A DNA stretch of 12,863 nucleotides from contig JAUWBH010000171.1 of NCBI GenBank assembly GCA_030605085.1, positions 1 through 12,863 of the forward strand. Direction: 5' to 3'. The position numbers were made by a program, and so were the translations under genes. Positions 10,786 to 12,510 of the stretch are shown in pieces; the stretch's first letter is position 1; each line of letters opens with the position of its first letter. This DNA comes from Promethearchaeota archaeon (GTDB taxonomy: Archaea; Asgardarchaeota; Lokiarchaeia; Sigynarchaeales; SOKP01). Below the pieces are notes generated by a model. It did no database searches. It saw only the letters and a list, made by a program, of their open reading frames with translations, and was not told the origin of the DNA.

Positions 10786-12076
10786 ATGGGCAAACTAGCG
10801 AGAAAAATTGCGATAATAGGAGCCGGTATGAGTAAATTTGGGAGGCATTTTCCTCTCAAAAGAAATCCCGATTTGTGGGTTGATGCGTGGCTTGATGCAG
10901 TTAGTAGAGTAGATAATGGTATTGAACCTAAGGATGTAGATGCGTGTTATGTTGGAAACTACTCTTCCGATTTGTTTAACCATCAAGGTCATATAGGACC
11001 TCTTATGGCAAATTTAGTTGGATTAACGCCTAAACCAGCACCACGCATGGAAGGTGCATGTGCAAGTAGTGGGGTAGCTCTTCGGCAAGCTATAATGGCT
11101 ATTGCTTCAGGAATACACGATGTAATTGCGGTTTGTGGCTGTGAAACTATGACAGAGGTATCTACGACTTTAGTGACCGACACACTGGCTACTGCATCTG
11201 ATATTCAGTTTGAATATCCTGCGGGTGCAACATTTCCAGGATTATATGCTGCAATTGCTTCAACACACTTCTATAAGTACGGTACTGCTCCAGAAGATTT
11301 AATGAGAGTTGCTATTAAAAATCATGAAAATGGGAAAGAAAATCCGTACGCTCATATGCAACAATCAATTAAAGATATAATGAATAGCAAAATAAAAAAG
11401 TTGGAAAGTCAAGGAGCAGATATTCCTGAATGGAAAGATGAGTTCGATTTCCTTAAGAGTCGTTCAAATCCAATGATAGCTTCTCCTTTAAGATTGTTTG
11501 ATTGTTCTTTAGTTACAGATGGCGCTGCATGCGTAATAGTAGCAGCTGAAGATGTTGCGAAAAAATTTACTGATACTCCTATTTGGATAACTGGTACTGG
11601 ACAGGGAAGCGCTGCGCTTTCATTACATGATAGAGAAAATATAACTAGCTTTATTGCTACAAAAGAGGCAGCTAGACAAGCGTACGAAATGTCTGGATTA
11701 GGACCGAAAGATATTCAAATTTGTGAGGTACATGACTGCTTTACAAAGAGCATGGCTAAACCGTTATGTTCGTAAATTAGCAGAAATTGTAGCTCTTGAA
11801 GATTTAGGATTTTACGAGAAAGGCAAAGCTGTTGAGGCTATAAAAAATGGAGAAACGAAAAGAGATGGATGTTTACCAATTAATACTTCAGGGGGATTAA
11901 AATCAAAAGGGCATCCAGTTGGAGCTACAGGGGCAGCAATGGCTGTAGAAACCTTCAAACAGATGAGAGGCATCGCAGAAAGAAACAGACAAGTCAAATT
12001 CGATGTTGAGAGAGCTATGACTCATAATCTTGGCGGATCTGGTGGCACATGTGTGGTAACAATTTATCAAAAGTGA
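10786..12076 (+). CDS. Thiolase (SCP-x/acetyl-CoA acetyltransferase-like), interrupted by a 31-nt BHB intron
   Basis: The gene reads 10786-11746 joined to 11778-12076 and would give 419 aa, a normal length for this archaeal thiolase group that condenses or cleaves ketoacyl-CoA. Exon 1 carries EGACASSGVALRQA with the nucleophile Cys92, CGCETMTEV (117-125) and EVHDCFT with His316. Exon 2 carries IAEIVALEDLGF, GGLKSKGHPVGATG with His366, and MTHNLGGSGGTCVV. Read without splicing, exon 1 runs into a stop at 11773-11775 (329 aa) and lacks the GHP motif. Removing the intron joins A to TA as an Ile codon (321), restoring the standard HDCFTIAEI motif. The DUF35 partner gene begins 14 nt downstream, as usual for this group, where it can channel acyl-CoA to the thiolase. 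A decayed pseudogene is the alternative, but every other part of both exons is intact and conserved. Confidence 0.92.
11747..11777 (+). other. Probable archaeal bulge-helix-bulge intron (31 nt) in the thiolase mRNA
   Basis: The transcript can fold as: outer helix CUGCU (11736-11740) with AGCAG (11779-11783); central 4-bp helix UUAC (11741-11744) with GUAA (11772-11775); 3-nt bulge AAA (11745-11747) on one strand and 3-nt bulge AUU (11776-11778) on the other; inner helix GAGCAUGGC (11748-11756) with GUUAUGUUC (11763-11771), nine pairs of which three are G-U; loop UAAACC. This is the strict substrate of archaeal tRNA splicing endonuclease, which cuts between the second and third bulge bases, here 11746/11747 and 11777/11778. 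Those cuts remove exactly the bases needed to restore the thiolase frame. Ligation would be by RtcB. Neither enzyme lies in this window. Confidence 0.85.
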
Positions 12077-12090: not shown

Positions 12091-12510
12091 ATGTCAGAAG
12101 AAAAGGAAATTACGGTACAAAATTATTTAGAGTATATAAATAACAAAAAATTGATGGGTTCTAAATGTAAAAAGTGTAGTGCTACATATGTTCCTCCAAG
12201 AAAATTATGCATTAAATGTAATTCGACGGATATGGAATGGATAGAGATGTCTGGTATTGGTAAAATAGCGGCATTTTCGTGCATAGGAGTTGGGACAACA
12301 TTTATGGTAGATAAAGGTTATTCAATGAAAAAGCCTTACTGTTTTTCGGTTATTAAACTTGATGAAGGTCCAATGATCAGCGGGCAATTAATCGGTGTAG
12401 ATGAATCTAAACCAGAATCCATAAAAATAGAAACTCCCGTGAAAGCATTATTTTTAGAGACGGAGATTAAAGAAGAAACGAGAATTGATTTAGGATTTGA
12501 GCCAGTTTAA
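12091..12510 (+). CDS. DUF35 OB-fold/Zn-ribbon thiolase partner protein
   Basis: 139 aa. An N-terminal helix (about 5-20) is followed by a rubredoxin-like zinc ribbon with Cys26, Cys29, Cys40 and Cys43 (CKKC and CIKC), then an OB-fold from about residue 48 (WIEMSGIGKIAAFSCIGV) to the end. In archaea this protein binds thiolase, and in some lineages HMG-CoA synthase, as a scaffold with a shared CoA site, passing the reactive intermediate between enzymes. It follows the thiolase gene after 14 nt with a strong Shine-Dalgarno sequence, so the pair should be made from one mRNA. The thiolase must be spliced for a full complex; this protein can be made either way. T-rich sequence at about 12530-12552 may end the transcript. 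Confidence 0.92.
   Translation: MSEEKEITVQNYLEYINNKKLMGSKCKKCSATYVPPRKLCIKCNSTDMEWIEMSGIGKIAAFSCIGVGTTFMVDKGYSMKKPYCFSVIKLDEGPMISGQLIGVDESKPESIKIETPVKALFLETEIKEETRIDLGFEPV

Follow-up and report, generated by a model that had tools for sequence, protein, structure and literature searches.

Putative bulge-helix-bulge introns in a thiolase gene and other protein-coding genes of Lokiarchaeia

An intron in archaeal pre-mRNA, that of the cbf5 gene of Crenarchaeota, is reportedly the subject of Watanabe 2002. In the available text of Yokobori 2009 (PMC2738675), the cbf5 intron is described as bulge-helix-bulge (BHB)-like and cut by the tRNA-splicing endonuclease EndA between bases two and three of the bulges, and predicted introns in other genes are mentioned. 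The accessible parts of two further articles state that, in archaea, only Cbf5 homologues have pre-mRNA introns (PMC4810243) and, as of 2020, that cbf5 is the only additional archaeal BHB intron reported to date (PMC7714728). The portion of PMC12397907 at hand contains no word starting with ‘Asgard’. In the open-licence literature (preprints excluded), we found no report of BHB introns in thiolase genes or in Asgard protein-coding genes, and earlier reports may exist. A match for BHB introns in Lokiarchaeota concerns group I introns in its accessible part, while one for EF-2 introns is unrelated, judging by its title and the start of its abstract.

Here, we examined a stretch of 12,863 nt from a Lokiarchaeon (hereafter, the window), which carries an interrupted thiolase gene. 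The frame that opens at 10786 meets a TAA stop at 11773-11775 after 329 codons, as originally predicted, and a second frame runs on to 12076. The same prediction held that removal of 31 nt repairs the gene, and this is borne out: the frame 10786-12076 without 11747-11777 encodes a thiolase of 419 aa with no further stop or frameshift, in which the motif HDCFTIAEI and the peptide EVHDCFTIAEIVALEDLGF span the junction. Pfam Thiolase_C_1 (144 positions) is matched up to position 49 by the N part and from position 50 on by the C part, and the spliced protein matches positions 1-143 without a break. Only the spliced form contains the whole N- and C-terminal thiolase domains along with the GHP motif, which places it with the thiolases of the 6esq type. 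The closest solved structure by sequence is the acetoacetyl-CoA thiolase 6esq itself, which we take to be an archaeal enzyme. The GHP motif, to which we ascribe an active-site role, is carried by the second exon as had been anticipated, so that the activity of the thiolase would probably depend on splicing. The original prediction also raised the idea that splicing might work as a switch of enzyme output. The Zn-ribbon/OB-fold protein encoded by the next gene is presumably the usual partner of a thiolase of this kind. As judged from the sequence, positions 11747-11777 very probably constitute a protein-coding BHB intron that would be cut by EndA and joined by the ligase RtcB to give the 419-aa enzyme. 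The features of the locus are listed in Table 1.

Table 1. Coordinates of the thiolase locus and of the predicted BHB fold within the window.
Feature	Position	Strand	Remark
Thiolase exon 1 (codons 1-320 and first base of Ile321)	10786..11746	+	
31-nt BHB intron (predicted)	11747..11777	+	
Thiolase exon 2, with SKGHPVGATG motif and stop	11778..12076	+	
Zn-ribbon/OB-fold protein gene (PF12172, PF01796), next gene after thiolase	12091..12510	+	Pfam match
Outer helix, 5' strand CTGCT, exonic	11736..11740	+	
Central helix, 5' strand TTAC, exonic	11741..11744	+	
5' bulge AAA, predicted cut after 11746 (AA/A)	11745..11747	+	Rule of cutting between bases two and three from the available text of PMC2738675
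Inner helix, 5' strand GAGCATGGC	11748..11756	+	
Closing loop TAAACC	11757..11762	+	
Inner helix, 3' strand GTTATGTTC	11763..11771	+	
Central helix, 3' strand GTAA, intronic, contains the unspliced-frame stop TAA	11772..11775	+	
3' bulge ATT, predicted cut after 11777 (AT/T)	11776..11778	+	
Outer helix, 3' strand AGCAG, exonic	11779..11783	+	

The fold consists of an outer helix of 5 bp, a central helix of 4 bp, an inner helix of 9 bp with three G-U pairs, and two 3-nt bulges. All of the helices, bulges and the loop of the strict BHB that was originally predicted are found in the sequence, and the standard cuts between bulge bases two and three fall exactly on the junction that restores the conserved thiolase. 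This is the sole BHB on either strand of the window (outer helix at least 5, inner helix at least 6, intron at most 60). Six mononucleotide shuffles, searched on one strand, gave 0, 1, 1, 1, 0 and 0 such folds, none of them with an inner helix of at least 9. When the insert was shuffled between fixed exons, none of 2000 shuffles had a central helix of 4 and an inner helix of at least 9 at the needed junction, and 0.1% had a central helix of 4 with an inner helix of at least 5. RNAfold recovers the outer and inner helices (z = -2.95), with the 4-bp central helix left open in the minimum-energy structure. Rfam models gave 0 matches to the window at the gathering score, those for group I and other Rfam-listed introns included.

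When genome contigs were searched with the spliced thiolase (thiolase A), 40 loci were found, namely 38 from Lokiarchaeota/Lokiarchaeia and two from bacteria. At 35 of them, orthologues of at least 75% identity cross the site insert-free and read straight through, and two further Lokiarchaeal loci are short fragments. One locus (L023, contig JAUWRB010000223.1, genome G001) has an insert of 45 nt at the identical base, between CTGCTTTACAA and TAGCAG, in which TAA stops occur twice. Its BHB has the TTAC:GTAA central helix and the outer helix of the window, bulges AAC and ATT, and a different 5-bp inner helix and core. Aligning homologous thiolases was a check proposed along with the original prediction, and its outcome favours the intron: 35 sequences without an insert and one with a different insert in which the BHB is kept at the site. 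The 5-bp outer helix would be possible in 7 of the 35 intronless orthologues, and the codon pair TGC + GCA, present in both intron-bearing thiolase A genes, is found in two of them. Among 83 genomes of the class of G001, 72 have a thiolase match at E ≤ 1e-60; in the matches listed, the thiolase A insert occurs in G001 only. Breaks in thiolase A of two other genomes (G065 and G018) were rejected as introns, being contig ends, Ns (L099) or substitutions.

In addition, protein catalogues were queried with a thiolase cut short so that full-length thiolases fall out, and the best 120 of 1512 matches were examined. N-halves terminating directly after HDCFT form the window's own cluster and at least nine others, from jgi, ena and ncbi sources. 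The nine other clusters have seven different tails (e.g. KSMTKPLCS, KNMNKLQSSCS, TIYS and KIKKEKVLIAD), from which we infer inserts at the HDCFT break, as read from the translations. Together with L023, these thiolases split at the same residue back the predicted phase 1 at Ile321 and the boundaries 11747-11777. In another Promethearchaeota genome, the 117-aa C-half P0001 reads out of the same intron with Ala changed to Thr. Taken at the level of protein letters, the Ala to Thr changes in P0001 and in a further protein, P0123, imply G to A at inner-helix positions 3 and 8, respectively, each of which would turn a G-U into an A-U pair; this supports the earlier proposal that the G-U pairs mark an RNA feature. 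Conservation of the fold at the window's own site is thus read from two DNA sequences (the window and L023) and two implied changes. In a tree of 54 thiolase N-parts, the 11 intron rows require at least seven gains or losses, of which well-supported branches force at least four. The intron tail of P0123 differs in one residue from that of window 11747-11775, the two proteins are 82% identical, and P0123 lies in another major clade; this likeness may reflect slow intron change or transfer.

An assembly or sequencing error that added 31 nt has to be considered, as the data are of metagenome origin and such data do hold frameshifts (L197) and Ns (L099). Against it, L023 has a structured insert at the identical base, the break recurs at the same residue in nine further protein clusters from three sources, and structured inserts lie in other genes and covary where tested. 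This recurrence leaves almost no probability for an error.

The first hint of introns beyond thiolase was the rtcB gene of G001, which is broken between GGVGY and DINCGV. In total, we identified 27 predicted introns at nine sites in six genes of 20 genomes plus the window, namely: two thiolases (A and B), RtcB, aEF-2 (four sites), an EF-2 paralogue and CO dehydrogenase. Their length is 29-33 nt in 26 of 27 cases, the exception being the 45 nt of L023. The earlier view of the thiolase intron as a one-off, of a kind rare outside cbf5, fails for Lokiarchaeia, where the same design occurs in five other genes. Thiolase B has a 30-nt intron at ILIGN/MDHFEG in 6 of 29 orthologues among the matches listed (at least 80% identity, site covered). 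The RtcB intron at GGVGY/DINCGV is 29 nt long, with a TTGG:CCAA central helix and a 9-bp inner helix (L147 1473-1501 and L184 1485-1513). It is carried by 2 of the 74 genomes with an RtcB match, some of these matches being partial, and the copies of the two carriers, G001 and G062, differ only in the loop and bulge.

For aEF-2, 30-nt introns occur in 14 genomes, relative to 54 whole-query matches (323 residues, at least 78% identity). They occupy four sites: E1 at TD/SDEEE (2 genomes), E2 at TDSD/DEEQ (9), E3 at TAH/IDHG (3) and E4 within HGK (1), and the aEF-2 gene of G037 (L223) has two separate introns, at 945-974 and 1074-1103. Many of the 14 genomes also have a paralogue that is about 45% identical. 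A distant EF-2 paralogue in G007 contains a 33-nt intron, and CO dehydrogenase contains one of 32 nt in a single genome, G031, the removal of which gives a full match to TIGR01702 (1-621 of 621). Sites E1 (L204 2287-2316, L212 917-946) and E2 (L214-L219, L221-L223) are 6 nt apart beside the near-repeat (A/T)CAGAT, and the 3' ends of their introns are alike (CTACTGTAG, with CTACTGAAA in most E2 introns), as if one intron had slid.

It should be noted that several other interruptions were observed. Between LPD and AHQGYG, the RtcB of G081 (L186, about 382-411) is interrupted in frame by 30 nt that include a stop and a strong hairpin; as its central helix has only 3 bp, this insert was not counted. 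In the RtcB of G008 (L185, about 1411-1439), about 75 conserved residues of the C-terminal half are gone, with about 27 nt in their place. Among the EF-2 paralogues at L225, L226 and L230, those of G071 and G026 have a single in-frame stop with no clear insert, and that of G081 is broken between frames; a stop was also indicated for G025.

The structure of 25 of the 27 introns was scored, leaving out L219 at E2 and CO dehydrogenase. Four central pairs, 3-nt bulges and a cut between bases two and three at the junction are found in 25 of 25, a figure that is partly by construction since, away from thiolase A, we set the junctions by hand within the limits of the protein alignment; the per-intron shuffles permit sequence-equivalent junction shifts only. 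The inner helix has nine unbroken pairs in 16 of 25 introns and nine positions with at most one mismatch in 22, and is shorter in three (8 in L228, 5 in L023 and 4 in L214). Counted as unbroken pairs, seven of 25 have five or fewer: 5 in L023, L217 and L218, 4 in L214 and in the E3 intron of L223, 2 in the E2 intron of L223, and 0 in L224, which 10% of its shuffles equal on this measure. In five of these seven, the inner helix still extends over nine positions, interrupted by a single mismatch. Apart from thiolase A (5 bp), all sites have a weak outer helix of 0-4 bp.

The fold is kept while the intron sequence changes, as seen between L023 and the window and in the covariation at two further sites, where the sequences are related and kinship inflates the counts that follow. 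In thiolase B (6 sequences), 100% of cells are paired (2 of 500 shuffles as high), 4 cells are double-changed (2 of 500), and the score is reached by 2 of 500. In EF-2 E2 (9 sequences, 8 distinct), 94.2% of cells are paired (8 of 500), with 6 of 104 unpaired; 4 cells are double-changed (4 of 500), and 4 of 500 attain the score. As a control, the partner was slid by 1-3 columns, and pairing fell to 28-49%. The number of double-changed pairs, two in thiolase B, is not unusual at either site (63 of 500 shuffles as high for thiolase B, 145 of 500 for EF-2 E2), and one slid control of EF-2 E2 likewise gives two; nor is the number of further pair types (255 and 394 of 500, respectively).

The uniform design bears on whether the ribosome might hop over the hairpin with no RNA removed, as in the byp elements and T4 gene 60. 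Conserved genes interrupted by short hairpins of about 30 nt would be in keeping with such translational bypass. Bypass elements have matching take-off and landing codons. By inspection, the last codon ahead of the insert and the triplet that ends the insert are different at all six phase-0 sites: AAT/TAA in thiolase B (AAC/CAA in one genome), GAT/TAG at E1, GAT/AAA at E2, CAT/TAA at E3, CAT/CAA in the EF-2 paralogue and TAT/CCA in CO dehydrogenase; no matched take-off and landing codons are therefore present. At thiolase A, RtcB and E4 a codon is split, and a hop would not rebuild it. Moreover, bypass has no need of a 4-bp helix and two 3-nt bulges at the junction, as seen in all scored introns, and leaves the same design in tRNA genes (see below) unexplained. 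We regard bypass as very unlikely.

Hardly more can be said for gene decay or a split gene, i.e. a pseudogene or two separate working chains, which is a highly improbable reading even though both halves in the window are open frames (329 and 117 aa) and public catalogues enter such halves as separate proteins. The 419 codons are free of any other defect, two chains would cut a single domain in two, with the break falling between profile positions 49 and 50, and the intron helices covary at the two sites tested. Furthermore, no second RtcB copy was found in the draft genomes of G001 and G062, so that the sole RtcB found in each is the interrupted one, and aEF-2 is interrupted in 14 genomes. Removal of the insert from the mRNA thus remains our preferred explanation.

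Regarding the spread of such introns, 174 of 227 Promethearchaeota genomes have an EF-2 match at E ≤ 1e-75, and among the matches listed internal stops in EF-2 are confined to genomes of the G001 class set. Loose scans for a BHB combined with ORF fusion yielded many chance matches among those listed. A tightened scan of stretches not picked for these genes gave two accepted introns (EF-2 and CO dehydrogenase) among 12 matches listed, which amounts to 1 in 400 kb for G031 and 1 in 681 kb for G001; the other 10 were judged by eye to be chance or gene junctions. The scan is not exhaustive: the 45-nt intron in the thiolase of G001 (L113), which had deliberately been put into its input, was not recovered, and several introns per genome is therefore a rough guess. 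Several candidates were dismissed. The conserved frame passes through the ‘intron’ in L197 (around 3116), a frameshift without BHB in what we take to be a U32-type peptidase, and in L171, presumably a threonine-synthase-like gene. L005 lies inside an intact gene, and in L045, L121, L122, L130 and L271 two genes are joined across a gap.

The enzymes expected to remove these introns are encoded in related genomes. All six genomes tested have EndA (PF01974), five of them with two genes for it, and five of the six have RtcB. By eye, one gene of the EndA pair keeps the Tyr/His/Lys pattern, which we take to be the EndA motif, and the other is without the His; such a pair fits a hetero-oligomeric enzyme. 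In the available text of PMC2738675, hetero-oligomeric EndA is linked to relaxed motifs and to cbf5 splicing. Introns of 29-31 nt with the same design are also found in tRNA genes of G001 and G031, in 4 of the 16 matches examined (of 45 listed) in an Rfam tRNA search of the two whole genomes, with a cut-off of 8/9 inner pairs that was set after the matches were seen. ARAGORN found no tRNA in the window or in 44 loci, and an Rfam search over 140 kb gave no match.

EndA and RtcB are thus the likely machinery for the mRNA introns as well. The thiolase pre-mRNA would fold into a BHB around 11747-11777, the EndA of the host would cleave each bulge after its second base, and RtcB would join the exons into the message for the 419-aa enzyme; the excised 31-nt by-product would be either circular or degraded. 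Cutting, ligation and the role of both enzymes on this mRNA are deduced here from DNA and protein sequence. As the only RtcB found in G001 and G062 is interrupted, the ligase would contribute to the splicing of the mRNA that encodes it, a loop that we put forward as a hypothesis.

Taken together, the same-design inserts in at least five genes other than thiolase A suggest that mRNA splicing is common in Lokiarchaeia, close relatives of eukaryotes. We consider it fairly probable that BHB introns of about 30 nt in mRNA are a lineage-wide feature, repeatedly gained, lost and sliding, and removed by the tRNA-splicing enzymes beside splicing of the eukaryotic type; they would include an intron in the active site of RtcB, giving the splicing machinery control over its own mRNA. 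Such introns recur in central genes (aEF-2, RtcB) of archaea close to eukaryotes, and these two genes would make splicing efficiency directly testable. Gene callers split the affected genes, so Asgard protein sets contain them in truncated form. Gain or loss at the same site and the apparent sliding also offer a manageable system for studying how introns arise without a spliceosome.

Compared with known systems, the thiolase intron most resembles that of cbf5, which in the accessible text of PMC2738675 is likewise BHB-like, cut by EndA between bases two and three (a predicted cut in thiolase), placed in the codon of a catalytic residue and in phase 1. From the same text, cbf5 introns share with the Lokiarchaeal set a patchy gain and loss and an often relaxed BHB, and the hetero-oligomeric EndA of their hosts may have a counterpart in Lokiarchaeia. 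The set differs from cbf5 in its genes (thiolase and five others), its lineage (Lokiarchaeia), its lengths (29-33 nt in all but one), the several sites in one gene (aEF-2) and the intron in the ligase gene rtcB, and it is known from DNA and protein sequence. Archaeal tRNA introns, including those of intron-rich Asgard tRNAs (PMC11291895, accessible part), share this fold and, in the case of G001 and G031, also the 29-31-nt design, whereas here the host is an mRNA, so that translation of an unspliced transcript can yield a truncated protein. In Haloferax, EndA likewise acts on BHB sites in an mRNA, that of HVO_1309, but these sites are in the 5' UTR, so that, unlike in thiolase, no reading frame is restored (PMC7714728, accessible part). 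The predicted thiolase intron belongs with the archaeal BHB introns of pre-mRNA; the new aspects are the gene, the lineage and the number.
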